Positions 141 to 16,147 of a stretch of 18,019 bases of DNA are shown one piece after another. Both the position numbers and the translations under genes were made by a program. The number at the start of each line of letters is the position of its first letter. Position 1 is the first letter of the stretch. The notes beneath the pieces were generated by a model. It did not search any database, was not told where the DNA came from, and was given only the letters and a program-made list of their open reading frames with translations. Source of the stretch: Candidatus Saccharimonadota bacterium (GTDB lineage: Bacteria; Patescibacteriota; Saccharimonadia; Saccharimonadales; Saccharimonadaceae); assembly GCA_030527565.1 (NCBI GenBank), contig JAUNAO010000003.1:1-18019 (forward strand), given 5' to 3'.

Positions 141-149
141 TGGTATAAT
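141..149 (+). promoter_or_regulatory. Extended -10 promoter of the Mur-like gene (leaderless)
   Basis: TGG-TATAAT (141-149) is a perfect -10 box with the TGn extension. It ends 6 nt before the ATG at 156, so transcription should start at or next to the A of the start codon. No convincing -35 box is visible at the usual distance. Confidence 0.7.
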
Positions 150-155
150 CAGGGT

Positions 156-902
156 ATGGAAACTAGTGAGGTACGCAAGAGCCAAAACAAAAACGGTGGG
201 CTCAAAAAACAGGCGCAGCAAGTTAAGGCAAAGTTGTTGAAGTCTTATTATGGCAATCCAATGAAGGATATGAAGTTGATTGCGATTACCGGGACGACGG
301 GGAAGACGATTGTGGCGCATTATGTGCATGAAATTTTGAAAGCGGCCGGAGAACAGGTTGCTGTGCTCGCGTCCGACCAAGCGTTTAAGGTTTCGATGCT
401 GCATAAGTTTTTAAGTGATGCTTGGAAGGCGGGGGCGAATGTTGTAATTGTAACGGTTCCAGCCGAGGGCTTGCGCGATAATGTGTTTTATGACTTGCCG
501 GTCACGGTTGCGGCGATGACAAATTTTGTCACTTCTAGCTTGAAAGATATGGCGCCGGAAGAATATCTTGAGAATGAGAAAACTCTGTTTGATATGAAGC
601 CGGAAATTGTGGTTTTGAACCATGATGATGCTAATTATGAGGTCTTCGCGGAATTTAAGGGGACGCGAGAGACTTATAAATTTGGCCAGACGGCGGGTGA
701 TGTAAAAATTTTAACTTCAAAACTTTATCCAAAGGGAACAGAGGCGACGCTCTCTATCAAGTCTGAAATTGTCACGGCGGCGACGTTTATTCCGGGTGAG
801 ATGGCCGTGTCTTATATGGCGTGTGCGGCAGCAATTACGACAGCGCTTGGAGTTTCGACTGAAAAGATTATCGACGGGCTGGCAGAATATAATCCTGAAT
901 AA
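156..902 (+). CDS. Degenerate Mur-ligase-like protein (central ATPase domain only)
   Basis: A 248-residue protein whose residues 39-245 resemble the central ATP-binding domain of Mur ligases, especially the MurE encoded convergently next door. The P-loop is kept (ITGTTGKT, 44-51). Most catalytic positions seen in the neighbouring MurE are changed: EVTSHA becomes TVPAEG (about 100-105), TNLTHEHLDYH becomes TNFVTSSLKDM (122-132), and GEFNVYNS becomes GEMAVSYM. The ligand-binding C-terminal domain is absent; the protein stops just where MurE reads VEGR. The N-terminus is basic and lacks a UDP-MurNAc domain. Nucleotide binding is plausible but ligase activity is unlikely; a regulatory or scaffolding pseudoenzyme is one inferred role. 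The ATG at 156 is chosen from the -10 box 6 nt upstream. Its stop lies 8 nt from the MurE stop. Confidence 0.75.
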   Translation: METSEVRKSQNKNGGLKKQAQQVKAKLLKSYYGNPMKDMKLIAITGTTGKTIVAHYVHEILKAAGEQVAVLASDQAFKVSMLHKFLSDAWKAGANVVIVTVPAEGLRDNVFYDLPVTVAAMTNFVTSSLKDMAPEEYLENEKTLFDMKPEIVVLNHDDANYEVFAEFKGTRETYKFGQTAGDVKILTSKLYPKGTEATLSIKSEIVTAATFIPGEMAVSYMACAAAITTALGVSTEKIIDGLAEYNPE

Positions 903-910
903 AAAGAAGT

Positions 911-2152
911 TTATATTTTTCTTAACAATTCCTTTGCGACCTTGATATCTTCGAAAGGATGTGGGCCGTCGGCGCGGAGGATGGTTTTTTCGTGGCCTTT
1001 GCCGAGAATCAGAACCAAATCGCCTTTCTTCGCTTTTTCGAAAGCAAGTTTGATGGCTTTTTTACGATCGAGTTCTTTGAACAAATCTTTGCCGAGAATT
1101 TTTCCATGTTTTTCGGCGCCCTGAATAAAGCCCGCGGCGATTTTTTCCGGATCTTCATCGCGAGAGTCGTCTTCAGTAATAATGACAATATCGGAATATT
1201 TCCCGAGAATTGCGCCGCGAATTGGGCGTGTCGAAGGGTCGCGACGACCAGCACCGCCATGGACGGAAATAATTTTGCCTTTATGATCTTTGACGGAATC
1301 GAAAACTTTCTCTAAAGCGTCCGGGGCGTGGGCGTAATCAACAATGACAGAGAAGGGTTGGCCTTCGTCGATAATATTCATACGACCCTCAACGGCCTCA
1401 AGAGATTTTAGGCCGGTAATAATTTGTTCATTGGTTAAACCCATTTCTTTGCCAACAAGAACGGCGGCGAGCGAATTATAAACATTAAATTCACCCGGTA
1501 TGCTAGCCTCAATATTTATATCACCAAGTGAATATTTTACGCCTGAAACGCTCAATTTTATAGATTTTGCGCGATTTTCACCCGATTTTATACCATATGT
1601 GATATATTTTTTCGCAAGTGTTTTAAAATACGCGGTTGCCTTATCGTCGGCATTGAGAATACTTAACTTCGCGCGGCGGAAAAGTTTACCTTTTGCGTTG
1701 CGGTAATTTGTTAAGGTTTTATGGTAATCGAGATGTTCGTGTGTCAGGTTAGTAAAGACGGCGATATCTATAGGTACACCGAGAGTGCGATATTCGGCGA
1801 GAGCGTGGGAAGTAACCTCGAGAACGAGAACCTTAGCGCCTTGATTTTTAATTTTTGCGATGCGATGATTCAGGGTCATTGCGTCAACAGTTGTCATATG
1901 GCCGAGCTCGTCTTTTAGTTTATCAACACCCCAAGCAACCGTCGTCATCAGACCAGTTTTAATGCCGGCCTGGTTCAACATGTGCCAAATCATAAAACAA
2001 GTCGTCGTTTTTCCATTGGTGCCAGTAATGGCGATAACTTTAAGATTTTTGGCCGGTCGCTGGTATTTTAGGCTTGCGGTAACGGCCCTAGCATAATGAT
2101 AGGGGAGAACCATTTGGTTATAGAAAGGGAGTTTTTCAAGAAGTTTTTTCAT
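911..2152 (-). CDS. murE: UDP-N-acetylmuramyl-tripeptide synthetase (MurE-type)
   Basis: This cytoplasmic ligase adds the third amino acid of the peptidoglycan stem peptide using ATP. Visible motifs in 413 residues: P-loop ITGTNGKTTT (42-51), EVTSHA (112-117), TNLTHEHLDYH (134-144), the lysine region before LNADD (about 154-170), VDYAHAPDAL (271-280), GRRDPSTRP (302-310) and GKGHE (384-388). Family members are usually about 480-500 residues; only about 40 precede the P-loop here, so most of the UDP-MurNAc-binding N-terminal domain is missing. The specificity motif, DNPR in diaminopimelate-adding enzymes, reads DDSR (328-331), so the amino acid added cannot be told. Last gene of the ABC operon: it starts 7 nt after the permease stop, with TAAGGA overlapping that stop as ribosome-binding site. 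Confidence 0.9.
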   Translation of the reverse strand: MKKLLEKLPFYNQMVLPYHYARAVTASLKYQRPAKNLKVIAITGTNGKTTTCFMIWHMLNQAGIKTGLMTTVAWGVDKLKDELGHMTTVDAMTLNHRIAKIKNQGAKVLVLEVTSHALAEYRTLGVPIDIAVFTNLTHEHLDYHKTLTNYRNAKGKLFRRAKLSILNADDKATAYFKTLAKKYITYGIKSGENRAKSIKLSVSGVKYSLGDINIEASIPGEFNVYNSLAAVLVGKEMGLTNEQIITGLKSLEAVEGRMNIIDEGQPFSVIVDYAHAPDALEKVFDSVKDHKGKIISVHGGAGRRDPSTRPIRGAILGKYSDIVIITEDDSRDEDPEKIAAGFIQGAEKHGKILGKDLFKELDRKKAIKLAFEKAKKGDLVLILGKGHEKTILRADGPHPFEDIKVAKELLRKI

Positions 2153-2159
2153 GTTTTCC

Positions 2160-3389
2160 TTAACGATAATGTTTTAGCGAGTCAATTGGATTTTTGCTCG
2201 CGGCTTTCAGGGCTGGATAGGTGCCAAAAATGAGACCGACGGCGAGCGTCGTGAAGAAAATGGTAAGGATAATTTCGAGGGAAATGTAGGGAGTAAACGG
2301 AGTGATGAGCGAGATAAAGAAGGCTAAAACATAGCCAAGAGCAACACCGAGCAGGCCGCCAAGAATCGAAAGGATGAGGGCTTCGAAGATAAATTGCATA
2401 AGAATATTATAGGAGGAAGCGCCGACGGATTTGCGAATACCAATTTCGTGCGTACGCTCGGCGACAGAGACCAGCATGATGTTCATGACGCCGATACCGC
2501 CGACAATGAGGGAAATACTAGCGACAATTGCAAGCATACCAGAGACGATACTTAGCAAAGTTGAAGATGGATGAGTGATTGCGTCGCCGTAAGCGACGGT
2601 GAAATTCGTATCGCCGGATTTATTTTCTAAGAGTTTTTCAGTAATTCTACCGCTAGTTTCGGCGAGGGCGGAAGTTGTGGTGGCTTTTGCGTTAATTTGT
2701 TGGATTTGGATCGAACCGATAGTTTGTTCAAGAGAATTGATGTCGAGAATGAGGGCATTATTGAAGTCGATATTGTCGAAGTTGATGGTTTTTTCGACTT
2801 CTTCGAGCACACCAACCACCATAAATTTTTCACCAGCGAGTTCGAGAGTTTTGCCGACTGGATTTGAAGTATTGAAGAGCAAAAGAGATAGCATATCGCC
2901 AACGACGCAGGCGTTTTCTTTGTTGCGATCGTTTAAAAATGTGCCGTATTTTAAAGTGTATGGTTCGATAGTGAGAAAATCTGAGTTTGTGCCAAGGACA
3001 GTGGCTGAGGCGATTTGGTTATCGCCAGCTTTTAAAGTGTTAGTTGAGACTGCGATTGGGGCGACAGCAGAAATAGTCTCGATATCTTTAATTGTAGCGA
3101 CATCAGAGATTGTGAGATTGGATTTTTCGAAAGAACTTGAAGCGGTTAATTCTTCGACGATGTTGGTGATTTGATCCTTGGAGGAAGAGGGGCGGACGAC
3201 GATTAGATCGGAGCCAATTTCGGATACTTCAGATTTAATTAAATTGGAGATACTGCCAGTTAAGGAAAGAATTAAAATAATTGAGGCAACACCAATCGCG
3301 ATGCCGAGACAAGTTAAAAGAGAGCGCGTGCGGTTTTCGCGAATTGCGGTTTTGGCGAGTTTTAGATGAGTTTTTAAGAGTAGTGACAT
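2160..3389 (-). CDS. MacB/FtsX-type ABC transporter permease
   Basis: A 409-residue inner-membrane permease of the MacB/FtsX/LolC class, which uses ATP to move a substrate or transmit force across the membrane without the usual import channel. A transmembrane helix near residues 25-47 is followed by a large extracytoplasmic domain (about 50-270), then three hydrophobic segments in the last 130 residues. The conserved family stretch GGIGVMNIMLVSVAERTHEI and the adjacent GIRKSVGA are present. The start codon overlaps the ATPase stop (TAATG), giving tight translational coupling. The substrate is unknown; typical ones are peptides, lipoproteins or antimicrobials. Co-transcription with murE suggests an envelope-related role, which is inference. 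Confidence 0.9.
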   Translation of the reverse strand: MSLLLKTHLKLAKTAIRENRTRSLLTCLGIAIGVASIILILSLTGSISNLIKSEVSEIGSDLIVVRPSSSKDQITNIVEELTASSSFEKSNLTISDVATIKDIETISAVAPIAVSTNTLKAGDNQIASATVLGTNSDFLTIEPYTLKYGTFLNDRNKENACVVGDMLSLLLFNTSNPVGKTLELAGEKFMVVGVLEEVEKTINFDNIDFNNALILDINSLEQTIGSIQIQQINAKATTTSALAETSGRITEKLLENKSGDTNFTVAYGDAITHPSSTLLSIVSGMLAIVASISLIVGGIGVMNIMLVSVAERTHEIGIRKSVGASSYNILMQFIFEALILSILGGLLGVALGYVLAFFISLITPFTPYISLEIILTIFFTTLAVGLIFGTYPALKAASKNPIDSLKHYR

Positions 3390-4150
3390 TATTTTTTTCT
3401 CCGGTTCCCGCGTTTTCGTTTTTTAGCTTTGATCATGATTGGCTGGGGTAGATTTTTATCGGCAACGGTTTTAACATCAGTATCGATTTGGCCATCAAGC
3501 ATATTAATAACGCGAGTGGCGTATGAAGTTAAGTTCGGGTTATGAGTCACCATAATAATAGTATTACCTTCTTCGTGGATCGCTTTCAGTTCTTCCATAA
3601 CGGTATAAGAAGCGCGAGAATCAAGGTTGCCGGTTGGTTCGTCGGCGAGAATAATTTCAGGACTATTGACGATGGCGCGAGCGATAGCAACGCGTTGTTG
3701 TTGGCCACCGGAAAGTTGGCTTGGGAGATAATATTCGCGATCTTGGAGATGGAAACGTTTGAGAGCTTCGGAGGCATTCTTTAAACGAATAGTTTTAGGT
3801 TGGTTCGCATAGACGAGAGGTAGGGCGACATTTTCAATAACTGGAAGATCCTCAATTAAATTAAAGTTCTGAAAAACAAAGCCGATTTTCTTCGCGCGGA
3901 GGTGCGCCTGACGAGCGGCGGAAATACTGGCCACCTCTTCGCCGTTTAACCGATATTCGCCAGAAGTTGCGCGATCGAGAAGTCCGATAATGTTAAGTAA
4001 AGTGGTTTTACCGCAGCCGGATGGCCCCATAATCATAATAAATTCGCCACGTTTTATAGTGAGATCGAAGTCTTTTAGCGCAAAGGATTCTGTATCACCA
4101 TAGCCGTAGCGTTTTGTGAGGTTTTTTAATTCGATAATTGTTTCATTCAT
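3389..4150 (-). CDS. MacB/LolD-type ABC transporter ATP-binding protein
   Basis: A 253-residue ATPase that powers the permease encoded directly downstream. All motifs are present: Walker [10 protein letters not shown] (42-50), Q-loop near 94, signature LSGGQQQR (146-153), Walker B IILADEP (166-172) followed by TGNLD, and H-loop His203. The TGNLD and [10 protein letters not shown] sequences are characteristic of the MacB/LolD/FtsE subgroup. The last dozen residues form a Lys/Arg-rich tail that is not part of the fold. No clear ribosome-binding site precedes the ATG; the CCA end of tRNA-Ser lies only 17 nt upstream, so the message may be freed by tRNA 3' processing, or start from a weak TATGAA -10 box overlapping the tRNA end. 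Confidence 0.93.
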
Positions 4151-4167
4151 AGGAAAAATTCATAAAA

Positions 4168-4257
4168 TGGCGGAAGTGGCAGGATTCGAACCTGTGAAAG
4201 ACTTGCGCCTTTACACGCTTTCCAAGCGTGCTCCTTAAACCACTCGGACACACTTCC
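4168..4257 (-). tRNA. tRNA-Ser(GGA)
   Basis: A complete 90-nt class II tRNA. Acceptor strands GGAAGTG and CACTTCC pair. The anticodon loop TTGGAAA carries GGA between stems CACGC and GCGTG, a long variable arm follows, the T loop is TTCGAAT, the discriminator is G and CCA is encoded. It sits between protein-coding genes on the same strand: 7 nt after the small membrane protein stop and 17 nt before the ABC ATPase start, with no terminator on either side. Confidence 0.96.
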
Positions 4258-4264
4258 GTCTCTT

Positions 4265-4602
4265 TTATTTTAACTTAAAATAGCGATTTCGACAATATGC
4301 CAGGGCGCTGGAAATCAGGAAAGTGATGATTGCTAGGACAAGGGTTGAGAGAGGGATAATTGTTGCAAGACGGGATTTTGGCTCAAGTTTTTGTTTGGTT
4401 TTTGTGAGAAAAATTAAGGTAAGGGCGGCGAGAATTGGATTTGAACTGTAAAAAACCAGCCATCAGTCGAACCGGTGTCAACTTGTCCGGCGACGGTGCC
4501 AAAATTAAGGGTAAAGATCGTAACTAAAATAGTCGAAATAACCAAATAAAGATTAATAAGGTTAAAAAGAAGGTGTGAATTTTTCTGGCGAGGCTTTGTC
4601 AT
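4265..4602 (-). pseudogene. Small three-helix membrane protein, interrupted by a one-base frameshift
   Basis: Two overlapping frames join into one sensible protein of about 112 residues if a T run on the minus strand (A run at 4450-4455) had seven instead of six bases. The first frame runs from ATG at 4602 (MTKPRQKN) with a helix near residues 15-35, then GQVDTGSTDGWFF. The second continues YSSNPILAALTLIFL, then SRLATIIPLSTLVLAIITFL, ending RNRYFKLK at TAA 4267-4265. Without correction the first frame runs to a stop at 4414. The ATG is 1 nt after the stop of the methyltransferase gene, so the two are probably coupled. I do not recognise the family. The break may be a real mutation, a base-calling error in a homopolymer, or less likely recoding. 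Confidence 0.65.
4267..4295 (-). promoter_or_regulatory. Promoter of tRNA-Ser(GGA), probably also serving the ABC-murE genes
   Basis: Read on the minus strand, TTGTCG (4295-4290), a 17-nt spacer and TAAAAT (4272-4267) form a reasonable sigma70-type promoter. It ends 9 nt before the mature 5' end of the tRNA. It lies within the end of the small membrane protein gene and overlaps its stop codon. No terminator separates the tRNA from the ABC genes. Confidence 0.55.
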
Positions 4603-4603
4603 A

Positions 4604-5755
4604 CTATAATGATAGCACAACTAGGTTTTCGATGTGCGGGGTGCGAGGGAAGAAATTAAAGATTTTGACATCGTCGATTTTATAGGTTTCGAGTAATTTT
4701 TTTACATCGCGAGCCTGAGTCGCAGGATTACAAGAGAGGTAGATAATCTTTTTTGGTTTAACTTCGAGGAGTTTTTCGATTAATTTTTCATCACAACCAG
4801 CGCGAGGCGGGTCGAGAATTACAGTTTGGTCTGGCTCGATGTAGGAAAGGGCGTTTTCGGATTTGTCGAGAACTGGAGTTGCGTTCTTGAAGTTTTTAGC
4901 ATTGTTTTCGAGTTCTCGATAAGCCGATTTGTCAACCTCAACGAGAGTTAAATTTTTATCTTTTGCGACTGAGAGGCCAATTGTACCAACTCCAGAATAA
5001 AGATCTAGGACTTTTTCGGTTGCGATGTGTTTTTTGATTTCCCCGAGAGCAAGTTCGTAGACGGGTAAATTAATCTGAAAGAAGCCGTTTGGGGAGTAGG
5101 AGTAGGTTTCGCCGAGAATTTTATCAGTAAGATTTTTGAAGATTGGGTGGGGTTTTCGTTTTTCAAAAAGCCCGCCAGAAACTTCGCCCTTTTGATTGCA
5201 CCTTAAAAGGAGTGACTGATATTTACGGGCCTCTTCGTGTTTTTCATTGAGGTTATCCACGATTTTTTGAGCAGCAGCAAAAATCTCAGGGCGCTCAATC
5301 GAAGATTTTTCAACTTTAACTTTACGATGAGAGCCACGAGCGTGAAAACCGAGATGGATTTTTTCGGTCTCATGGTCCCAAAAGAGGGAATATTCCATTT
5401 TATTACGGTAGAAATAGGGGTTTTGATCGGTAAAGATTTCTGGGGTGTCTAGTGGGATGTTGTGTTCGCGGAAAATTTCGACGACGAGGGCCTGTTTTTG
5501 TTCGAGCTCATAATTATAATCCATGATTTGCCATGGAGAAGTTGAGAGGTAACAAGGGTCTTCTGGGTTGACACGATGTTTCGAGGGGTTTATAATTTTA
5601 AGCGCAACCGCTTCGGTGAAGTTGGCTTTGGTTTTTGTTGGCTCATATTCCTCGACGAGTTCGCCCGGTAAGGCGTTCCAGAGAAAGATTTTTTTGCCAC
5701 TAGCTTCGGTCGCGAGACCCATACCACCCGGAATAATCTTTTCTACCTTAATCAT
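4604..5755 (-). CDS. RlmD/TrmA-family RNA m5U methyltransferase
   Basis: A 383-residue SAM-dependent enzyme that methylates C5 of a uridine, in this family in 23S rRNA (RlmD, RlmCD) or tRNA (TrmA). An N-terminal TRAM-like RNA-binding segment (1-60) precedes the methyltransferase fold: SAM motif DLYSGVGTIGL (251-261), DPPRAGC (315-321), catalytic Cys342 in SCNPATQ and general base Glu376 in PHIEN. The four-cysteine Fe-S site of RlmD is absent; only Cys68 remains in the corresponding stretch, followed by TSPWQ, which points to the cluster-free type. The exact target uridine cannot be told. ATG at 5755 lies 7 nt after a perfect extended -10 box, so the mRNA is probably leaderless. It ends in TAG. 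Confidence 0.88.
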   Translation of the reverse strand: MIKVEKIIPGGMGLATEASGKKIFLWNALPGELVEEYEPTKTKANFTEAVALKIINPSKHRVNPEDPCYLSTSPWQIMDYNYELEQKQALVVEIFREHNIPLDTPEIFTDQNPYFYRNKMEYSLFWDHETEKIHLGFHARGSHRKVKVEKSSIERPEIFAAAQKIVDNLNEKHEEARKYQSLLLRCNQKGEVSGGLFEKRKPHPIFKNLTDKILGETYSYSPNGFFQINLPVYELALGEIKKHIATEKVLDLYSGVGTIGLSVAKDKNLTLVEVDKSAYRELENNAKNFKNATPVLDKSENALSYIEPDQTVILDPPRAGCDEKLIEKLLEVKPKKIIYLSCNPATQARDVKKLLETYKIDDVKIFNFFPRTPHIENLVVLSL

Positions 5756-5762
5756 AGTTTAT

Positions 5763-5786
5763 ATTATAGCAAAAATATGTTATAAT
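5763..5786. promoter_or_regulatory. Divergent pair of extended -10 promoters
   Basis: The 37-bp gap between divergent start codons 5755 (-) and 5793 (+) holds two perfect TGn-TATAAT boxes. The minus box occupies 5768-5763 and ends 7 nt before its ATG. The plus box occupies 5781-5786 and ends 6 nt before its ATG. Each lies in the upstream footprint of the other, so simultaneous polymerase binding is unlikely. Both transcripts should be leaderless. Confidence 0.75.
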
Positions 5787-5792
5787 TTGTAT

Positions 5793-6578
5793 ATGTCTGC
5801 GGAAGATGTGTTAAGGGCGAGCGAAAAAGCCGCACTTGAGGGTCAAATTGTTTCAAAGGTGACTGGAAAAAAGCTGAAAACTGGCAAGAAGAAAAAAGCT
5901 GGGGTTTCGGCGGGGCTTTTTGTGACCGCAATGATTGCGGTTATAGCCGGTCTGTTTGGGACGGGAAATATTATTCCTTCTGCGATTTCGGAACGGTTGA
6001 TTGAGGAAACCGATGTACAGTATGCGGATGCGGTCCAAAGTAAGATTTTAGTTTTTCAGCAGGCGCTTTCGTCTGGTGAGATTCCGGATGATACGGCGGA
6101 AATCCTGAAAAATAATGGTGTTGTTGTTGGTTATTTAGAGAATGGAAATTTTGTAGAGAATAATAAAAGCGGGAAGTCGTCGGTTTTGTCTTATGATGGG
6201 AAAATTATTAAGGCGAGCGAGTTTCAGACGGCGGTAAATAGCGACGCGGGGCTTTACAATGCGTTTACGCAGGCGACTTATTCGCGGGCGGCGTATTATT
6301 ATGATGATTCGGCGAAGGCGGTGTTTCGAAAGTTAGGGGTGAGCCGGAATAATTATGCGAATGACCAGAGTTTTAGTGAGGTGATGAGCTCGGTGATGGG
6401 GGAGGGGAGTTCGATTAGTGTCAATAATGTGGTGAAGGTTGAGAAGACTAACGAGCGGGGGGAGAAATATTATGTTTACGAGACGCGCGGGGAAAATAGT
6501 GAGACGAAAGACGCGGCGGCGATGGTTGTGAGTGTGGCGGGGAAAAATACGGCGGGGACGACGGGGGAAGCAAAGTAG
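5793..6578 (+). CDS. Large membrane-anchored protein of unknown function, N-terminal part
   Basis: 261 residues from MSAEDVLRAS to TAG at 6576-6578. The longer open frame upstream of 5793 is antisense to the methyltransferase; the ATG 6 nt after a TGT-TATAAT box is the better start. A short cytoplasmic segment with KKLKTGKKKK (26-35) precedes one transmembrane helix (about 37-58) and an exported region. I do not recognise the family. The frame continues past the TAG without another stop for 471 codons, and the sequence on both sides is of one style (Ala/Ser/Asn/Val-rich, GCG/GGG/TCG codons). This is therefore probably the first third of one protein of about 730 residues broken by an amber codon. 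Confidence 0.7.
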   Translation: MSAEDVLRASEKAALEGQIVSKVTGKKLKTGKKKKAGVSAGLFVTAMIAVIAGLFGTGNIIPSAISERLIEETDVQYADAVQSKILVFQQALSSGEIPDDTAEILKNNGVVVGYLENGNFVENNKSGKSSVLSYDGKIIKASEFQTAVNSDAGLYNAFTQATYSRAAYYYDDSAKAVFRKLGVSRNNYANDQSFSEVMSSVMGEGSSISVNNVVKVEKTNERGEKYYVYETRGENSETKDAAAMVVSVAGKNTAGTTGEAK

Positions 6579-6590
6579 AATGCGGCAAGT

Positions 6591-10088: not shown

Positions 10089-10328
10089 CTTATTCCTTTC
10101 TATATATTATTTAGTAGTAGTTGTAGTAGGGGTTGTGGAATTGTGTATAAGTGTGGGGTTTTATAGGGGCTGGGGAGTTGTTGAAAAGGTGGTGGAGAAG
10201 TTGGGAAAAAGTTGTGAGGAAGTTTGTGTTTTACACGGGATTTTGTGGATGGGGAGAGTTTTCCAGAAGATTTCCACGGAGTTTTTAATGTGATTTTCGC
10301 AGGGTTTTCCACGAGATTTCCACAAAAG
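10089..10328. other. oriC unwinding region between dnaA and dnaN
   Basis: This 240-bp noncoding gap has the parts of a bacterial unwinding region. Read on the minus strand: DnaA-box-like sites (ATTTCCACA 10316-10324, TTTTCCACG 10305-10313, ATTTCCACG 10270-10278, TTTTCCAGA 10259-10267; on the plus strand TGTGGATGG 10244-10252), then a long stretch that is G-rich on the plus strand, then two adjacent boxes (plus strand TGTGTATAA 10142-10150 and TGTGGAATT 10134-10142), a CCCC step, six trinucleotides (plus strand 10112-10129: TAG x3, TTG, TAG x2) and an AT-rich tract 10101-10111 next to dnaN. This matches the order box-box, GC step, DnaA-trio, AT-rich element of the B. subtilis origin. Confidence 0.8.
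10112..10129 (+). other. DnaA-trio element
   Basis: TAGTAGTAGTTGTAGTAG is five TAG trinucleotides and one TTG in register. TAG on this strand equals the 3'-GAT-5' DnaA-trio unit known to guide DnaA onto single-stranded DNA during origin opening. It is correctly placed between adjacent DnaA boxes and an AT-rich tract. Confidence 0.75.
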
Positions 10329-11684
10329 TTAGACATACATTTTCTCCCGAATAGCTTCGATTTCGTCTCGGAGTTTGAAATTTAATTTAAGATCTTGTTC
10401 GATTTTACGGACGCCATGGATGACGGTAGTGTGGTCTTTGACGCCTACCTCGGCGGCGATTTTGGTGGTACTCATAGAGAGTTCTTTGCTGAGAAGAAAC
10501 ATGGCAACTTGGCGAGCGTTTTTAATATTCATCACTCGGGATTTGCTACACATTTCTTTTACGGAGAGATCGTAGAATTTAGCAACTTTATCGAGGATTT
10601 GTTTAGAATTGACGCCTTGTGGTTTTGTTGCGTGAGCAACACTGACGGCGCCCTTTTGGATTAGTTCGAGTGGGGTAAGACCGCGGACGTCGGACATGAG
10701 GAGAAGGGTGGAAAGTTCACCTTCAAGGTCACGAATATTTGTATTGACGTTTTCGGCGATGTATTCGATTGCTGCATCCTCAATTTCAGCACCAGAAAGA
10801 TCGGCTTTAGCGCGGAGAATGGCGCATTTGTCTTCAAATTTAGGGAGTTGGAGATCGAAGGCGCCAGCCCAGGTAAGACGAGAAGCGAGGCGTTCGTCGA
10901 CAGATTTGATTTGGCTAGGGAGACGGTCGCTGGTGACGATAATTTGTTTATTGAGTTGGTAGAGGGAGTTGAAGATATTAAAGAATTCTTCCTGGCTTTT
11001 TTCCTTGCCGACGATGAACTGAAAATCGTCGATAATGAGACAGTCGAGCTCGAGGAATTTTTGGCTGAAGTCTTTACCATGGCCTTTGCGGACAGAGTCG
11101 ATAAAATCGGCATAGAAACTTGAAATCGGGGTGTAGAGGATCTTGTAATCTGGGTTTTTACGGATTAATTCGTTACCGATAGCTTGGATTAAGTGGGTTT
11201 TACCGAGGCCCGGTCCACCATAAAGGAAAAATGGATTATAGTTAGCGCCCGGGTTGTCGACAATGGCTTTTGCGACGGAGGCGGCGAGATCGTTGTTTGA
11301 GCCAACAATGAAGTTGTCGAGAGTATATTTAGGGTTTAGCCCATTATTTAGGGGGCTAGTGTGAGATTTTAGAGATGGTTTGATTTTGTTTTTGAGGAGA
11401 TTTGGGTCGGCAGTAATTTCGCGGGGACGAACTTTGGATTTTTTAGTTTCAGCGACTTCGAAACTGATATTGTTTACTTCTAAGCCATTATTTGTAAGAG
11501 CGGTTTCGATTTCGGTAATAAATTTGGATTGGAGTTGTTTGCTGTAAAAAGTATTCTTAACACTAATGACGATGTCGCCATGGTCGGCGGAGATAAGGGA
11601 AGTGTCTTGGAACCAAGTTGAAAAGTTGGTGGCTGAAATTTTTTGTTCAATTTCAGCAAGGGCATTTTCCCAAATATTGTGCAT
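10329..11684 (-). CDS. dnaA: Chromosomal replication initiator protein DnaA
   Basis: A 451-residue AAA+ initiator that binds DnaA boxes and opens oriC. It has an N-terminal domain I (1-80) with the W-containing FSTWFQD motif, a short linker, AAA+ domain with Walker A GGPGLGKTH (156-164), Walker B LIIDDFQF (216-223), an arginine-finger region DERLASRL, and the C-terminal helix-turn-helix signature VGVKDHTTVIHGVRKI (413-428). The usual signature has GGRDHTTV. The start is fixed by a strong AAGGAGG ribosome-binding site 4 nt upstream of ATG 11684. A TGC-TATAAT promoter with a DnaA box over the -35 position suggests autoregulation. Confidence 0.98.
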   Translation of the reverse strand: MHNIWENALAEIEQKISATNFSTWFQDTSLISADHGDIVISVKNTFYSKQLQSKFITEIETALTNNGLEVNNISFEVAETKKSKVRPREITADPNLLKNKIKPSLKSHTSPLNNGLNPKYTLDNFIVGSNNDLAASVAKAIVDNPGANYNPFFLYGGPGLGKTHLIQAIGNELIRKNPDYKILYTPISSFYADFIDSVRKGHGKDFSQKFLELDCLIIDDFQFIVGKEKSQEEFFNIFNSLYQLNKQIIVTSDRLPSQIKSVDERLASRLTWAGAFDLQLPKFEDKCAILRAKADLSGAEIEDAAIEYIAENVNTNIRDLEGELSTLLLMSDVRGLTPLELIQKGAVSVAHATKPQGVNSKQILDKVAKFYDLSVKEMCSKSRVMNIKNARQVAMFLLSKELSMSTTKIAAEVGVKDHTTVIHGVRKIEQDLKLNFKLRDEIEAIREKMYV

Positions 11685-11688
11685 TAAA

Positions 11689-11736
11689 CCTCCTTAATTA
11701 ATTTGATTATAGCACGGAGGAGAAGAGTTTTCCACA
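11689..11736 (-). promoter_or_regulatory. dnaA promoter and ribosome-binding site with overlapping DnaA box
   Basis: On the minus strand: AAGGAGG (11695-11689) 4 nt before the ATG, and TGC-TATAAT with the -10 box at 11711-11706. The -35 position (11734-11729) falls inside a DnaA box TGTGGAAAA (11736-11728). DnaA bound there would block polymerase. Confidence 0.75.
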
Positions 11737-11859
11737 GGTTTTTTGGGGTGAGAAAATATTGTGTAATATGTTTTTGGGTATATCAGGGGTGGAGTTTTCC
11801 ACATTGAGAGAGGTAATCTCTAAAAAGGATGTGGAAAACTTCTTGAAAAATGTGGAAAA
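11728..11859. other. DnaA-box cluster between dnaA and rpmH
   Basis: Four copies of the same 9-mer: TTTTCCACA at 11728-11736 and 11795-11803 on the plus strand, and its complement TGTGGAAAA at 11830-11838 and 11851-11859. Each differs from the classical TTATCCACA at one position. The identical variant repeated four times suggests that TTTTCCACA is this organism's preferred box. With the cluster on the other side of dnaA this gives a bipartite origin. Confidence 0.8.
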
Positions 11860-11871
11860 GTGCGGTATACT
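11843..11871 (+). promoter_or_regulatory. rpmH promoter with a DnaA box in its spacer
   Basis: TTGAAA (11843-11848), 17-nt spacer, TATACT (11866-11871). The fourth DnaA box (11851-11859) lies wholly inside the spacer. The predicted transcript has a leader of about 33 nt and an AAGGA ribosome-binding site at about 11902-11906. Confidence 0.7.
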
Positions 11872-11911
11872 ATAACAAGTATTTGAGAAAAATTAAAGTT
11901 TAAGGAAGAAT

Positions 11912-12049
11912 ATGCCAAAACGAACTTATCAGCCACACAAGCGCCAGCGCAAAGCTGAACATGGTTTCATGAAGCGAAATGCGTCAAAAACTGGTCGGAA
12001 AGTGTTAGCACGCCGCCGGTTGAAGGGTCGCGCAAGGCTAACAGCTTAA
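11912..12049 (+). CDS. rpmH: 50S ribosomal protein L34
   Basis: A 45-residue basic protein of the large ribosomal subunit. It begins [14 protein letters not shown] and continues [20 protein letters not shown] and KGRARLTA, the typical L34 pattern and length (44-47 residues). The ATG at 11912 has AAGGAAG a few bases upstream. It is the first gene right of the origin and precedes rnpA, as in most bacteria. Confidence 0.97.
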
Positions 12050-12051
12050 AG

Positions 12052-12073
12052 ATAGGCCCCGAAAGGGGCTTAT
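12052..12073 (+). terminator. Hairpin between rpmH and rnpA
   Basis: GCCCC-GAAA-GGGGC (12056-12069), extended by a G-T and three A-T pairs to a nine-pair stem with a stable GNRA loop. It starts 3 nt after the rpmH stop. The following T stretch is short (TTATTTGG), so termination may be partial. The rnpA -10 box follows directly. Confidence 0.6.
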
Positions 12074-12079
12074 TTGGTA

Positions 12080-12085
12080 TATAAT
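12080..12085 (+). promoter_or_regulatory. rnpA -10 box (leaderless)
   Basis: A perfect TATAAT ends 7 nt before the rnpA ATG at 12093. The -35 position falls in the preceding hairpin and shows no match. Confidence 0.6.
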
Positions 12086-12092
12086 ATATATT

Positions 12093-12434
12093 ATGTTAAG
12101 TAAGAAATACCGATTTCATTCGCGGGGCGGGGTGAGATATGTTTACAAAAATGGGAAGACGGTCCGGCGATCGAAGGCGTCTTTGGTTTTTTGTGATAAC
12201 GAGCGGGGTTTTACGCGGGTATCGGTAGTAGTGTCGAAGAAAGTAAATAAGTCGGCGGTAGGGCGGAATCGGATTCGGCGGCGGGTGTATGAAGTGATTC
12301 GAAAGAATTTTGAGTTAGTACCAAAAGGGCGAGATTATATTTTTGTAATCTTTTCAAAAGAGTTTTTGAAAATGAAAAATGCGGAACTTGAAACTATTCT
12401 TGGCGAATTAGTACAAGAGAGCAAGATTTCGTGA
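12093..12434 (+). CDS. rnpA: Ribonuclease P protein component
   Basis: A 113-residue basic protein that assists the RNase P RNA in removing tRNA 5' leaders. It has the N-terminal YRFHSRGGVRYVYKNGK segment, the central strand pattern RVSVVVSKKV, and the RNR signature KSAVGRNRIRRR (53-64) followed by YEVIRKN. Length fits the family (110-125). There is no ribosome-binding site; a TATAAT 7 nt upstream of the ATG implies leaderless translation. Its stop codon TGA is also part of the extended -10 box of yidC. Confidence 0.95.
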   Translation: MLSKKYRFHSRGGVRYVYKNGKTVRRSKASLVFCDNERGFTRVSVVVSKKVNKSAVGRNRIRRRVYEVIRKNFELVPKGRDYIFVIFSKEFLKMKNAELETILGELVQESKIS

Positions 12435-12440
12435 TATAAT
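12432..12440 (+). promoter_or_regulatory. yidC extended -10 promoter overlapping the rnpA stop codon
   Basis: TGA-TATAAT (12432-12440): the rnpA stop TGA supplies the TGn extension of a perfect -10 box. The box ends 7 nt before the yidC ATG at 12448, again predicting a leaderless mRNA. Confidence 0.7.
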
Positions 12441-12447
12441 TAAACGA

Positions 12448-13557
12448 ATGAATAAGAGTGTGAAGAAATATATTATCTGGGGGATTGTTTTAGCATTTAT
12501 TATCGGATCGATGGTGACGGGTTCGCCATTTAATTTAATTGATGCGATTTTGGTGCGACCGATTGTAAATATTTTGTTTGTGATCTATAACTTGGTTGGT
12601 GATTTTGGGCTTGCGATTATTATCTTTACTATTTTGGTGAAAGTTTTGACCTGGCCACTCTCAAAGAGCCAATTAAAGCAAACGCGGTTGATGAAAAAGA
12701 TTCAGCCAGAATTAACTCAGATTCGGAAGAACTGTAATGGAAACAAGCAATTAGAGTCGCTTCAAACAATGGATCTTTATAAACGGTATAATATTAAGCC
12801 GTTTGCATCGATTTTAACATTATTAATTCAGTTGCCGGTATTTATTGCGATTTTCTCGGCGATTCGGGTGATTGCAACGCCGATGCCGACGGATAATTTA
12901 ATGAACCGAGCGTATCCGATTGTGGCATATGAAGGTTCGAAGATTTTAGAGCTTGAGGAGAAGCAGAAGGTTTATCTCGCGGATTTGGAAAATACGGAGA
13001 TTACGGCGGAAGAGAAAACTGAGTATGATTTTCACCCAGTATTGTTTGGGGTAATTAATATGGACGCAAAGGCAAGCGACGTGCTTTCAGCGAACAAATT
13101 CTCTTGGAGTGCGATGTTTATGTTAGTGATTGCGATTTTAGCGTCGGTTGCGCAATATTTTATGGCGAAACAGCAAATGCCGTCTGGGAAATCTGAGAAG
13201 AAAAAGAAGTTTAGGGATCTTTTGAAAGAGGCACAGGCTGGTAAGGAGCTTGATAATTCGGATATCAATAATTTGACGACTGGTCAGATGTCGAAGATGA
13301 TGCCGATTATGATGTTTCTCATCATGATTAACTTGCATGGGGCGCTCGCTTTTTATTATTTCCTCAGTAATGTGTTGACAATCTTCCAGCAAAAAGTCAT
13401 TTATACGCGGATTAAGGATGATATGGATGATGCGACGGATAGGGCGACAATCCGCGAACTGAAAAAGATACAAGAGGCCGAAGTGGTCGAAAATAAAAAA
13501 ACAGGAACAAAAATTACAAGAATCTCCGCAAAGGATAATAAAAAGAAAAGGAGATAA
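12448..13557 (+). CDS. yidC: Membrane protein insertase YidC/Oxa1
   Basis: A 369-residue integral membrane insertase that helps place proteins in the cytoplasmic membrane. It has an N-terminal helix (8-24), the first core helix (about 40-66) with GLAIIIFTILVKVLTWPL, a charged cytoplasmic hairpin, and further core helices at LTLLIQLPVFIAIFSAI, FMLVIAILASVAQYFMA and MMPIMMFLIMINLHGALAFYY, then a basic tail ending KDNKKKRR that could touch ribosomes. It lacks the large periplasmic domain of Gram-negative YidC. The substrate-groove position usually Arg is Lys65 here. It starts leaderless and is followed 2 nt later by jag, the usual partner. Confidence 0.95.
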   Translation: MNKSVKKYIIWGIVLAFIIGSMVTGSPFNLIDAILVRPIVNILFVIYNLVGDFGLAIIIFTILVKVLTWPLSKSQLKQTRLMKKIQPELTQIRKNCNGNKQLESLQTMDLYKRYNIKPFASILTLLIQLPVFIAIFSAIRVIATPMPTDNLMNRAYPIVAYEGSKILELEEKQKVYLADLENTEITAEEKTEYDFHPVLFGVINMDAKASDVLSANKFSWSAMFMLVIAILASVAQYFMAKQQMPSGKSEKKKKFRDLLKEAQAGKELDNSDINNLTTGQMSKMMPIMMFLIMINLHGALAFYYFLSNVLTIFQQKVIYTRIKDDMDDATDRATIRELKKIQEAEVVENKKTGTKITRISAKDNKKKRR

Positions 13558-13559
13558 TA

Positions 13560-14015
13560 ATGAATAAAGATGAGTCAATTAGATTTGCGGCGAAATACTT
13601 GGAGGATTTGCTGAGTTTTTTTGGGATTAACGTGGCGATTTATTCGACGATTGAAGATGATGTGATTCAGTTGTCAGTACCGTCGACGTCGCTCAATTCG
13701 CTTTTAATTGGGCGGAACGCAGATAATTTACGGGCTTTGCAACATATTGTTTCGATGGCGCTGGCTTCGAAAGAGGCGGAAGTGACGCGGGTGAATGTTG
13801 ATGTGGCGAATTATAAGCGCCAGAGAGCGGATCGGATTGAAGAAAAGGCAGAAGGTTGGATTGCGAAAGTTCGGCAATCTGGAGAGCCGATGACGATTAA
13901 TTTGAACGCGGCGGATCGTCGGGTTGTTCATAAGTTGGCGCAAGATTATTCAGATATTGAGACGCATTCGGAGGGGGAAGGGCGAGAACGAAAATTGGTT
14001 ATTAGTAAATTATAA
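13560..14015 (+). CDS. jag: RNA-binding protein Jag/KhpB (KH-R3H)
   Basis: A 151-residue single-stranded nucleic acid-binding protein; in other bacteria Jag/KhpB/EloR affects cell elongation and binds RNA. The KH domain (about 30-85) has LLIGRNADNLRALQ; its GxxG loop reads GRNA, with the last Gly changed to Ala. The R3H domain (about 95-151) has the Arg120-x3-His124 motif. The N-terminal Jag_N domain of Firmicutes homologues is missing. Unlike yidC it has a good ribosome-binding site (AAGGAG) inside the end of yidC, so it is translated from the yidC transcript. The stop lies in the left arm of the inverted repeat. Confidence 0.93.
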   Translation: MNKDESIRFAAKYLEDLLSFFGINVAIYSTIEDDVIQLSVPSTSLNSLLIGRNADNLRALQHIVSMALASKEAEVTRVNVDVANYKRQRADRIEEKAEGWIAKVRQSGEPMTINLNAADRRVVHKLAQDYSDIETHSEGEGRERKLVISKL

Positions 14016-14110
14016 ATAGTTAATTTCGGAACAAGGGGGCCCGGCCCGTACGTTCTTAAACGGGCGGGCCCGCCTTCGGCGAAACGTTCCTTAATTAACT
14101 ATTTATAATT
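14008..14110. terminator. Large inverted repeat, probable bidirectional terminator between jag and LCP gene
   Basis: Perfect 18-bp arms (AATTATAAATAGTTAATT at 14008-14025 and its complement at 14093-14110) enclose a second matched pair, GGAAC (14028-14032) and GTTCC (14086-14090). The core is very GC-rich and holds GGGCCC (14037-14042) pairing with GGGCCC (14066-14071), CCCGT (14045-14049) with ACGGG (14060-14064), and a small CGCC-TTC-GGCG hairpin (14071-14081). The arms contain the last codons and stops of both convergent genes. GC-rich hairpins flanked by AT-rich arms fit termination in both directions. Confidence 0.7.
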
Positions 14111-15744
14111 ACTATAAAATCATATTGGTTGGAAATGCCCTCAGGTAGGGTGTTTTCGCTGGTGATGCCGTAGAAATCTTCGAGTAAGGAGAGGGTGCCT
14201 GGCTTGTCGTTGGTGGTTTTGTAGATTGTGTAACCTTCATTATATTCGCCTTCTGGGGCGTTGTCGACGGATATATTAGAATAGCCGGCTTCCTCGAGTT
14301 TCTTCTGTTCTTCAGTGGCGAGACCATAAGTTTCGGTTGCATTTAAGACAAGAATGGTTGCGCCTTCGTAGTCGCGAGGGTCGTTGGAGAGTTGTTTGGC
14401 GACATAGGTACGGATTTTACTATAGTTGCCGGCGCCAGTTTTAGGTACGACATAGGAAATGCCGTTAATGTTTGCGGTAGTCATGAAATCTGGCCAAAGG
14501 GAGATTTGGCGAATAGTTTCGAAATCAAAAGTAAAGGTTAGATGAGCTGCGGTTTTAAGTTCGGAAACTGAGAAATTGGTGCGAAGATTATCACCGAGGG
14601 TTGAGGCGAGGCTAACGATATCAGTAATAGAAAGATTTTTTTCAAAAATACGATCTTTAATGCCGATGAGGATTTTTTGTTGGCTGTTGCCGCGGGTAAA
14701 ATCGCCACCGGAAGTGCCATGACGGGCACGGGCAAGACCAAGAGCTTCTTCGCCATTCAAAGTATATTCAATACCGGCTTTATAGACAGCGCCGGTCCAG
14801 TACTTATCATTAATGTCTTCATCGAGAGTAACTTTGATGCCGCCGAGGGTGTCAACAATTGAAACGAGAGAACCCCAGTTGAGATGGGCATAATATTGGA
14901 ATTCAATTCCGAGGATATCGCCAACTTTAGTCATTAAAGCATCGGCACCGGCGGCTTCGTTGTCGCCTTTTTGATTATTACACCAATAAACTTCGTTGAT
15001 TTTTCCGGTTGCGGTACAAGTCGGGGAGGCCTTAAGGTCGCGAGGAAGGGAAAGCATGGCGACGTCGCCGGTTTCTTGATTAATACTGATTGCCATAATA
15101 GAGTCGGTTAATTGGGCGCCGGCGTGTTTACCGTTGCCTTCATCGCCTTCCATGTTGTAGCCGCTAGTACCGAAGGCGAGAATATTTGTTCGTCCGTCAG
15201 CATCGGTTTTTAGGGGGTCGTATTTTTCGTCCATAAAGGTGAAGAGGTCAAGAATATTGCCTTGGCCGCCAGTGATTTTGGCAATAATATCGTTACCCCA
15301 AAGAACAGCCCAAATAATTAGGCCGCTTAAAGCGAGGACAATAACAAGTATAATAATAGTAATTGTGCGACGAAGTTTTGAAGGTTTCTTTTTATGTTTT
15401 TTTATATTTTTTTGTGTTTTGTCTGTGTTATTGTTGTCTTTATCTGTGATTTTGAGGGATTTCTTGAGTTTATTGGACTTTTTCTTTTTTGGTTCGTCTT
15501 CGAGATCAAGAGCAGAAACTGGGCTTAAGAAATCTTCAATTGCTTCGGCGCGGGAAAGTTCTTCGGATTTTGGTTTTTGTTTAGGAGCTTCATCGTCCAA
15601 AACGACATCAATATCGAGATTTTCATCAGGAATGAGAATTTTTTCCTCTTTGGCTTCTTCGATTTTAATAGCGAGAGGTTTTTTTTGAACAGTTTTTTTA
15701 GCGGCACGAGTAGTCAGCCCATCAATTGATTTATTTGGTTTCAT
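14095..15744 (-). CDS. LytR-CpsA-Psr (LCP) family cell-wall glycopolymer transferase
   Basis: A 549-residue membrane protein. LCP enzymes attach teichoic acid-like or capsular polymers to peptidoglycan outside the cell. A long charged cytoplasmic N-terminus (1-125, Lys/Glu-rich and probably disordered) leads to one transmembrane helix (126-149). The extracellular LCP domain (about 184-375) shows TNILAFGTSG, QLTDSIMAISI, the conserved MLSLPRDL, KINEVYW, LGGIKVTLDEDI, LNGEEALGLARARHG and RGNSQQKIL, including the Arg residues that contact lipid phosphate. A LytR_C-like domain follows (about 443-549: ATILVLNATETYGLA). It is convergent with jag and divergent from the HTH gene. A -10 box ends 8 nt from the ATG. 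Confidence 0.93.
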   Translation of the reverse strand: MKPNKSIDGLTTRAAKKTVQKKPLAIKIEEAKEEKILIPDENLDIDVVLDDEAPKQKPKSEELSRAEAIEDFLSPVSALDLEDEPKKKKSNKLKKSLKITDKDNNNTDKTQKNIKKHKKKPSKLRRTITIIILVIVLALSGLIIWAVLWGNDIIAKITGGQGNILDLFTFMDEKYDPLKTDADGRTNILAFGTSGYNMEGDEGNGKHAGAQLTDSIMAISINQETGDVAMLSLPRDLKASPTCTATGKINEVYWCNNQKGDNEAAGADALMTKVGDILGIEFQYYAHLNWGSLVSIVDTLGGIKVTLDEDINDKYWTGAVYKAGIEYTLNGEEALGLARARHGTSGGDFTRGNSQQKILIGIKDRIFEKNLSITDIVSLASTLGDNLRTNFSVSELKTAAHLTFTFDFETIRQISLWPDFMTTANINGISYVVPKTGAGNYSKIRTYVAKQLSNDPRDYEGATILVLNATETYGLATEEQKKLEEAGYSNISVDNAPEGEYNEGYTIYKTTNDKPGTLSLLEDFYGITSENTLPEGISNQYDFIVIINS

Positions 15745-15781
15745 TATTTATAATTATAACATATGGCAGTGAAGCTAACAA
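15726..15781. promoter_or_regulatory. Overlapping divergent promoters in an 18-bp gap
   Basis: The palindrome TATAATTATA (15749-15758) gives a perfect -10 box on each strand, overlapping by 2 bp: plus 15749-15754, minus 15758-15753. Each ends 8 nt before its ATG (15763 and 15744). The -35 boxes lie inside the opposite genes: TTGATT (15726-15731) for plus and TTGTTA (15781-15776) for minus, both with 17-bp spacers. The two promoters should exclude each other. Confidence 0.8.
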
Positions 15782-16127: not shown

Positions 16128-16147
16128 AATAATAGGAGAATTATCTG

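Follow-up and report, generated by a model that had tools for sequence, protein, structure and literature searches.

Start codons and putative -10 elements in the window

The window (the whole 18,019-nt stretch of DNA that was analyzed, part of a 595-kb draft genome with Saccharibacteria as its closest named relatives) contained 36 copies of the hexamer TATAAT, where shuffles expect 12.9. A preliminary description of this DNA had listed seven ATG start codons directly preceded by an exact TATAAT, and all seven pairs were recovered at gaps of 6, 7, 6, 7, 7, 8, and 8 nt. TGn preceded five of the seven boxes; the boxes of rnpA and lexA lacked it. The features discussed below, including three contrasting Shine-Dalgarno (SD) starts, were as follows:

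141..158, + strand: TGG, TATAAT (144-149), 6 nt and ATG (156), a putative fused extended -10; gene 156-902 with a Mur ligase middle domain (Pfam Mur_ligase_M)
5753..5771, - strand: TGC, TATAAT (5768-5763), 7 nt and ATG (5755); tRNA (uracil-5-)-methyltransferase-type gene 5755-4604 (Pfam tRNA_U5-meth_tr)
5778..5795, + strand: TGT, TATAAT (5781-5786), 6 nt and ATG (5793); gene 5793-6578, without a Pfam match
12080..12095, + strand: TATAAT (12080-12085), 7 nt and the rnpA ATG (12093), without TGn (Pfam Ribonuclease_P)
12432..12450, + strand: TGA, TATAAT (12435-12440), 7 nt and the yidC ATG (12448) (Pfam 60KD_IMP)
15742..15765, both strands: 18-nt lytR/lexA spacer between ATGs at 15744 (-) and 15763 (+) (Pfam LytR_cpsA_psr and LexA_DNA_bind)
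11682..11714, - strand: contrast, dnaA promoter TGCTATAAT with its box (11711-11706) 21 nt 5' of the ATG (11684)
13549..13562, + strand: contrast, jag start (13560) with SD AGGAGA at gap 5 and no adjacent -10
16134..16150, + strand: contrast, SD AGGAG (16134-16138) 5' of ATG 16148

The genes starting at 5793 (+) and 5755 (-) diverge, with an ATG-to-ATG distance of 37 nt. The lytR/lexA spacer contained the palindrome TATAATTATA (15749-15758), which supplied a box to each strand: the lexA-side + box (15749-15754) had a gap of 8 and no TGn, and the lytR-side - box (15758-15753) had a gap of 8 and TGT at 15761-15759. At yidC, the TGn was the TGA stop codon of rnpA. An upstream stop codon regularly doubling as TGn was rejected as a general feature, since stop positions showed no general peak there. 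At dnaA, AAGGAGG (11695-11689) lay between box and ATG, the arrangement of an SD-led gene with a predicted short leader.

Genome-wide distribution of the adjacent box

A tally of distances from TATAAT to start codon, proposed in the preliminary description as a check, revealed a genome-wide peak at gap 6. In 286 kb, TATAATN6ATG occurred 50 times, and 49 of the 50 ATGs opened ORFs of at least 90 aa. Such ORFs numbered 49, 12, 6, and 4 at gaps 6, 7, 8, and 9, and every other gap in the range 0-44 gave zero to five matches. Before ORFs of this size, the reversed hexamer TAATAT had seven matches each at gaps 4 and 5, and ATTATA had seven at gap 2, presumably as overlaps with TATAAT.

Among 236 called starts (285,930 bases of the host genome), 61 were preceded at gap 6-8 by an exact TATAAT. 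When the stretches upstream of these starts were dinucleotide-shuffled, the count averaged 1.26 (largest 6), and off-gap controls gave one match at gaps 14-16 and two at gaps 22-24. Allowing up to one mismatch, the count at gap 6-8 was 74, shuffles averaged 9.7 (largest 17), and the off-gap controls gave 9 (gaps 14-16) and 10 (gaps 22-24); chance would account for about 10 of the 74. Across the whole genome, TATAATN{5,9}ATG had 174 matches and the reversed pattern 35, a control that is imperfect, here and in the related genomes below, because ATG and its reverse need not be equally frequent, so that modest ratios are not to be over-read.

Only the abundance of TATAAT in the window speaks for a chance origin in an AT-rich genome. 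Genomic GC is 45%, shuffles and other gaps reach about 2-3% of the strict count, and the reversed pattern reaches 20%. With the gap peak at 6, these controls refute chance or base composition as the explanation, which we regard as extremely improbable.

Sequence preferences around the box

In the 45 genes with an exact box at gap 6, position -15 was T in 87%, -14 was G in 80%, -16 was A or G in 93%, and -1 was T or C in 91%. The resulting motif was TRTGnTATAAT, followed by about 6 nt with a pyrimidine in the last place, and then ATG. TGn preceded 50 of the 61 strict boxes and 77 of 336 other TATAAT copies (p=1.6e-18). A pyrimidine occupied -1 at 53 of 60 gap-6 starts versus 60 of 136 SD starts (p=2.5e-9). 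Both the TGn and this pyrimidine are additions to the preliminary description, and both speak for a promoter. At least four of six matches to the -35 sequence TTGACA were present in 41% of cases versus 23% in shuffles. The genome encodes a 323-aa sigma factor with regions 1.2, 2, 3, and 4.

The 16S 3' end with its anti-SD was not found, by model or pattern, in the host genome or among 12 genomes of the genus including the host; the 16S model also missed 5 of 14 well-known control genomes, and its negative therefore says nothing about presence.

Two classes of start

The start model assigned 85 of the 236 starts to the box class, 136 to the SD class, and 15 to neither (one of 237 called genes was dropped from this count). 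The motif counted here was also the one used to train this model; the shuffled and off-gap controls limit the bias but rest on the model's own starts. Both rnpA and rpmH escaped the home-made gene caller. Within the window, the model picked 16181 instead of 16148 and made one doubtful box-class call (6591, GTG, TAGAAT at gap 9). Strict cases began with ATG in 60 of 61 instances, the remaining one being TTG.

It had been proposed that start position in this organism is set by the promoter. This applies to between a quarter and a third of genes (61 by the strict count, or 85 by the model, of 236) and fails in general, as 136 of 236 look SD-led. Retention of SD sites by genes within operons stood as a tendency and not as a rule, for 27 of 101 starts lying at most 25 nt after a same-strand gene were box class. 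Of the divergently placed starts, 28 of 50 were box class; where the preceding same-strand gene lay more than 60 nt away, only 14 of 50 were.

Orthologous loci

Nine genes were followed through orthologous loci, which are related and not independent; a box was scored with at most one mismatch at gap 5-9. The box was kept in 41/51 rnpA, 42/52 yidC, 39/43 lytR, and 40/42 lexA orthologues. An adjacent box was absent from all orthologues of dnaA (0/48), rpmH (0/49), jag (0/51), and dnaN (0/47) and present in 1/26 orthologues of the 16148 gene. The SD sites described for dnaA, jag, and the 16148 gene were seen in the sequence, with SD-like stretches in 48/48, 51/51, and 23/26 orthologues; for rpmH, likewise described as SD-led, the figure was 39/49. 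SD-like stretches within 18 nt also occurred in 8/52 yidC and 1/43 lytR loci. TGn was mostly missing from the rnpA and lexA boxes of these loci (present in 11/41 and 4/40, respectively). For the nine genes, whether a box or an SD site is present appears to change little from one related genome to the next.

The yidC anchor, a fixed residue, was missing in 3/52 loci. Upstream of it, the ATG lay at 63-78 nt and the box at 77-93 nt, with gaps of 7-9 (search range 5-9) in 42 of 49 loci. Where the box moved, the start codon appears to have moved too. Seven of the 49 did not fit: four had the box 10-11 nt from the ATG with AAGGAG in between, and the other three had a longer spacer, an SD-like stretch, and a GTG start.

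Those three GTG starts favor the idea of genuine promoters with short leaders whose true start codons lie downstream, leaving the +1 ATG unused. Starts chosen by homology, with ATG favored and the box not used, fell at the expected place in 51/51 rnpA and 37/43 lytR loci and at most 3 nt off in 42/42 lexA loci, most with a box. Together with the long ORFs opened by 49 of 50 TATAATN6ATG matches, this makes unused ATGs very unlikely.

In 34 of 40 loci, the divergent lytR and lexA genes were separated by only 16-20 nt, in which their -10 boxes overlapped. The palindrome TATAATTATA, with the two boxes on opposite strands, was found in 35 of the 40 placed loci; 2 of the 42 loci with both starts could not be placed. 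A second spacer of this shared-box kind was found at dnaG. To our knowledge, few gene arrangements are as compact as these conserved divergent spacers of 16-20 nt.

A spacer this short could not hold a further promoter without reaching into coding DNA. This bears on whether TATAAT is instead an AT-rich, unstructured stretch within leadered mRNAs that aids ribosome binding, with transcription starting further upstream. SD-poor bacteria with AT-rich upstream biases do exist, and these biases reportedly cannot simply be assigned to promoters (Nakagawa, 2017). Against this, the exact hexamer, the TGn in constant position, the spacing peak of single-nucleotide width, and the pyrimidine at -1 follow the grammar of a promoter, and TATTAT, AT-rich and as frequent as TATAAT, never preceded an ORF of at least 90 aa at gap 6. 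Given the spacing peak, the position preferences, and the divergent spacers, a translation enhancer in place of a promoter was judged unlikely; we give the AT-rich-stretch explanation only a slim chance.

Related genomes

The pattern was strongest in the host's genus and weaker across the order. Five genomes of the genus contained 71-94 copies of TGNTATAATNNNNNYATG versus 0-1 of the reversed pattern. Among 26 sampled genomes of one family, a single strict pattern gave 1 to 94 matches per genome. Some related genomes carried TATACT, TACAAT, or TAAAAT at gap 6, and part of the 1-94 range reflects boxes other than TATAAT. Strict TATAAT was therefore rejected as too narrow a measure of spread, and the order was scanned with a degenerate pattern. 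Within the family, predicted leaderless usage forms a natural gradient, so that gain and loss of leaderless initiation become testable among close relatives with reduced genomes.

Proposed mode of initiation

We consider the box class to be extended -10 promoters of the sigma-70 type fused to start codons, with a probability of roughly 0.9. The spacing, the extended -10, the pyrimidine before the ATG, the near-exclusive use of ATG, the orthologue conservation, and the lack of SD sites at box-class starts in a genome where an SD class coexists and orthologues split by gene support a transcription start site (TSS) at the ATG or at most about 2 nt from it. That the mRNA is leaderless is what we infer from these DNA features.

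The housekeeping-type sigma factor, with its regions 1.2, 2, 3, and 4 kept, would bind TGn and TATAAT with little need of a -35. The polymerase would open the DNA and begin RNA at a purine 7 (up to 9) nt past the box, namely the A of the ATG. The modal gap is exactly 6; gaps of 7-8, found at five of the seven window boxes, could leave a leader of 0-2 nt, and over gaps of 7-9 the leader could be 1-2 nt long. The mRNA would then begin with AUG or 1-2 nt before it and be translated without SD pairing through 5'-AUG (70S-type) initiation, which has been described for other leaderless mRNAs. The remaining genes of the same genome would use a leader and an SD site, and at a few divergent pairs one spacer of 16-20 nt would serve both genes.

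A broader reading is tentative, and we rate it at somewhat below even odds. In the host's genus of Saccharibacteria, some 18-20 nt made up of TGnTATAAT, 6-8 nt with a pyrimidine last, and ATG may act as one cassette, a combined start of transcription and translation for a quarter to a third of genes, including the core genes rpoD, dnaG, a class I tRNA synthetase, alaS, ftsK, priA, yidC, and rnpA. One palindromic spacer of 16-20 nt would serve two divergent genes, and polymerase would therefore have to choose between lytR and lexA, or between dnaG and its neighbor. SD-expecting gene callers may misplace starts in these uncultured genomes.

Comparison with known systems

Leaderless initiation of this kind is known from Deinococcus, Actinobacteria, and Lactococcus. 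We found no report of it for Saccharibacteria, and the mode is apparently undescribed in that group.

Nearly one third of D. radiodurans genes have a -10 box some 6-7 bp ahead of the ORF, an SD class exists beside them, and mutation and promoter tests of -10-adjacent ORFs have been reported for Deinococcus-Thermus (PMC12340547). The adjoining box and the SD class in the same genome are shared with the present case. The box differs: it is TANNNT there, most commonly TACACT, whereas here it is strongly TATAAT with TRTGn.

Genes termed TA-led, with a Pribnow-like box about 12 bp before the start, have been read as leaderless, at mean shares of 4.2% of genes in Firmicutes, 19.2% in Actinobacteria, and 39.4% in Deinococcus-Thermus (Zheng, 2011; PMC3160421). 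The Lactococcus logo in that work has a very strong TG, linked by its authors to a missing -35, and resembles the TGn of the host genome. The term TM7 has no occurrence in its text.

In mycobacteria, nearly one quarter of transcripts are leaderless, a -10 hexamer or an SD site marks the class in a mutually exclusive manner, and a 5' ATG or GTG is necessary and sufficient (PMC4633059). The share of leaderless starts predicted here and the box-or-SD split are alike; the predicted starts here are almost only ATG (60/61 strict), in contrast to ATG or GTG there.

Bidirectional promoters have symmetric -10 elements from which transcription starts at divergent TSSs, with 18 bp as the commonest distance between the two (Warman and colleagues; PMC12825309); the word leaderless has no occurrence in that text. 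The overlapping opposite-strand boxes predicted at lytR/lexA are similar. They differ in that both predicted TSSs here fall at or very near the two start codons, which would make the whole intergenic region the promoter.

Promoter-Adjacent Starts Across the Genome

The preliminary description had listed seven start codons in the window (156+, 5755−, 5793+, 12093+, 12448+, 15744− and 15763+), each preceded by an exact TATAAT; re-checking the sequence confirmed their positions and their gaps (nucleotides between the end of the −10-like box and the start codon). The window is the beginning of contig 30 of a draft genome (594,968 bases, 61 contigs, 95% complete), of which 285,930 bases (286 kb) supplied the gap tallies and start calls. 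The predicted genome-wide peak was present in these 286 kb, sharp and centered on gap 6. TATAAT preceded ATG at this gap 50 times, and 49 of the 50 opened an ORF of at least 90 amino acids. Gaps 7, 8, and 9 gave 12, 6, and 4 such ORFs, and every other gap from 0 to 44 gave 0–5. The control hexamers TATTAT and TAATAT occurred zero times and once at gap 6, and TAAAAT showed a small bump at most (five and six at gaps 6 and 7). Over the whole genome TATAATN{5,9}ATG had 174 matches, compared with 35 for the reversed pattern.

Of the 237 called genes, 236 were sorted by a three-class start model: 85 had an adjacent −10 box (predicted leaderless), 136 a Shine-Dalgarno (SD) site, and 15 neither. Gaps among the 85 box starts were 6 (60 starts), 7 (12), 8 (seven), 9 (five), and 10 (one). 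The box was an exact TATAAT in 65 of the 85, and 61 of these 65 lay at gaps 6–8. When upstream stretches of the 236 starts were shuffled 100 times, these 61 strict boxes compared with a mean of 1.26 (largest 6); with one mismatch permitted, 74 boxes compared with 9.7. Measured by strict boxes, the class therefore took in roughly a quarter of starts (61/236); measured by model assignments, it took in roughly a third (85/236). For that quarter to third of genes, the leaderless reading, with start position set by the promoter as had been proposed for the organism, is supported at the sequence level; the other starts were mostly SD starts (136/236).

Structure of the Element

Alignment of 45 exact gap-6 genes on the ATG revealed the consensus TRTGn ahead of TATAAT (T 58% at −17, A/G 93% at −16, T 87% at −15, G 80% at −14). 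Position −1 was T in 60%, C in 31%, A in 9%, and G in 0%. TGn, which makes an extended −10, preceded 50 of 61 strict boxes vs. 77 of 336 other TATAATs, and a pyrimidine preceded the ATG at 53 of 60 gap-6 starts vs. 60 of 136 SD starts. In E. coli, transcription usually starts at a purine preceded by a pyrimidine. The −35 signal was weak, with at least four matches to TTGACA in 41% vs. 23% of shuffles. The E. coli start point sits about 7 nt past the −10, a distance of 7 bp being called optimal in PMC12825309; at gap 6 the expected start nucleotide would be the A of the ATG. A sigma factor of 323 aa (L073) carried regions 1.2, 2, 3, and 4, and its own gene starts with an ATG that follows a TATAAT by 8 nt.

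The 286 kb contained 127 TGnTATAAT boxes. Of these, 54 lay no more than 10 nt from a called start, 30 were 11–300 nt upstream of such a start, 31 fell at other intergenic positions, and 12 sat inside genes. This spread indicates that predicted fused and leadered promoters exist side by side in the genome.

Genes and Genomic Context

Ten box-class proteins, picked by length or position, were scanned for domains.

Box-class genes and associated features
Window, box-type starts: Mur ligase fragment, tRNA uracil methyltransferase, RnpA, YidC, LytR-CpsA-Psr protein, LexA-type DNA-binding protein, one without a match
Outside the window, scanned: DnaG, class I tRNA synthetase (I/L/M/V type), AlaRS, Clp ATPase, FtsK, penicillin-binding transglycosylase, PriA, P-type ATPase, one without a match
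L005:3037-4584, the tenth scanned protein: EPSP-synthase-type (MurA-like) enzyme carrying a helix-turn-helix domain at its N terminus, an apparently unusual fusion; box-type start
Window 12432-12440: extended −10 of yidC, whose TGn is the TGA stop codon of rnpA; no general rule of this kind was found among other genes
Window 14008-14110: inverted repeat (25-nt arms, 92% complementary, 53 nt between arms) at the ends of the convergent jag and lytR genes; possibly a two-way terminator
Window 15763-16086, plus strand: LexA-type protein (107 aa), divergent from the LytR-CpsA-Psr gene
L014:9756-9773 (contig 21 of the window's genome): 16-nt spacer with overlapping −10 boxes, shared by dnaG and a divergent neighbor lacking any Pfam match; downstream of dnaG, rpoD has its own box 8 nt before the ATG

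Box-type starts made up 28 of 50 starts facing a divergent neighbor and 6 of 19 with no preceding gene on the stretch. Behind a same-strand gene they made up 27 of 101 at distances up to 25 nt, 10 of 16 at 26–60 nt, and 14 of 50 beyond 60 nt. The class was thus commoner at divergent starts than at close same-strand starts (p = 0.0006), yet with 27 of 101 of the latter it is no simple marker of first genes. The earlier statement that operon-internal genes keep SD sites accordingly held as a tendency, not for these 27.

Within the 286 kb, a gene caller that misses some genes gave 25 divergent pairs, whose five shortest spacers (16, 18, 33, 37, and 47 nt) were all flanked by box-class starts on both sides. 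Of the 40 loci that could be placed, 34 had a lytR/lexA spacer of 16–20 nt, and in 35 the spacer contained the palindrome TATAATTATA; the dnaG spacer is a second of this kind. A shared spacer of 16–20 nt would admit one polymerase at a time. PMC12825309 describes E. coli bidirectional promoters as occupied by one polymerase at a time, and basal transcription as too low for competition at the five tested. No peptidase domain turned up in the Pfam scan of the LexA-type protein, which is a possible regulator of the spacer shared by lytR and lexA.

Conservation in Orthologous Loci

A YidC search of a named collection gave 52 loci, relatives and so non-independent trials, titled Candidatus Saccharibacteria (51) or Methanobrevibacter (one), with a ruminant host named in 32. 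By these hits the window's genome probably belongs to Saccharibacteria as well. Starts were picked by homology, with ATG favored and the box ignored, and a box was scored with at most one mismatch at gap 5–9. Boxes preceded rnpA in 41/51, yidC in 42/52, lytR in 39/43, and lexA in 40/42 loci; counts were 0/49 for rpmH, 0/51 for jag, 0/47 for dnaN, and 1/26 for the window gene starting at 16148. The dnaA gene, said earlier to keep its SD site, does so: its promoter TGCTATAAT is followed by 21 nt containing AAGGAGG and then the ATG, a leadered type, and 0/48 orthologues had an adjacent box. Four window genes (156, 4604-5755, 5793, and 911-2152) had no match within the 52 loci and so fall outside these conservation counts.

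Relative to a fixed residue, the yidC start codon lay 63–78 nt and the box 77–93 nt upstream, and with gaps of 5–9 allowed, 42 of 49 loci had gaps of 7–9. In four of the other seven, AAGGAG stood between the box and the ATG; the remaining three combined a longer spacer and an SD-like stretch with GTG as start codon. The yidC promoter appears to switch between a leaderless and a short-leader state. By eye, some of 14 further genomes had a box at gap 6–10 before yidC (including G155, G415, G248, G031, G161, and G177), and others a purine-rich SD-like stretch (e.g., G240 and G121). The contig titled Methanobrevibacter sp. (L037) carried a Saccharibacteria yidC locus with rnpA, yidC, and lexA upstream stretches identical or nearly identical to those of locus L036, and looks mis-binned.

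Spread Across Genus, Order and Phylum

The survey of the phylum covered 379 genomes. The strict pattern TGNTATAATNNNNNYATG matched 76, 94, 81, 90, and 71 times in five sampled genomes of the same genus (reversed pattern, 0–1), 1–49 times in the other 21 family genomes, and 0–33 times in the rest of the sample. Plain TATAATN{6,8}ATG gave 154 matches vs. 19 reversed in the window's genome. Ratios were about 1–2 in many genomes of the phylum, and some genomes of families f29 and f85 were at or below the reversed control; the mode is therefore not established phylum-wide.

In each of the 78 genomes sampled from the order, the degenerate pattern TGNTANNNTNNNNNYATG exceeded its reversed control, from 111 vs. 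2 in the window's genome to 28 vs. 17, 34 vs. 22, and 17 vs. 10 among the weakest. Gap-resolved counts of TGnTAnnnT (50–80 kb per genome) peaked at gap 6 in G155, G240, G248, G232, and G161. G274 peaked at gaps 6 and 7, G415 at 6 and 8, and G177 nearer 7; G307 showed little, and G093 had too few ATGs for judgement. Taken together, these counts make it likely that the fused-promoter mode extends throughout the order, with this genus showing it most strongly and with the boxes closest to TATAAT. A covariance model and a 3′-end pattern found no 16S rRNA in this genome or 11 further genus genomes; the gene is probably unassembled or left out of the data examined rather than absent from the organisms.

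Comparison With Known Systems

Full-text literature searches, with most subscription journals and preprints outside their coverage, gave, judging by titles and abstracts, no published account of leaderless genes in Saccharibacteria, Patescibacteria or the candidate phyla radiation, and nothing on leaderless starts in connection with Saccharibacteria transcription start sites or SD use. GeneMarkS-2 per-genome predictions may include Saccharibacteria already. Leaderless genes whose start adjoins a −10 are well documented in Deinococcus-Thermus (PMC12340547), in Actinobacteria and others (PMC3160421), and in mycobacteria (PMC4633059). The mode itself is thus known elsewhere; two features stand out here, the regular grammar of extended −10 plus initiator and the minimal divergent spacers, which are conserved.
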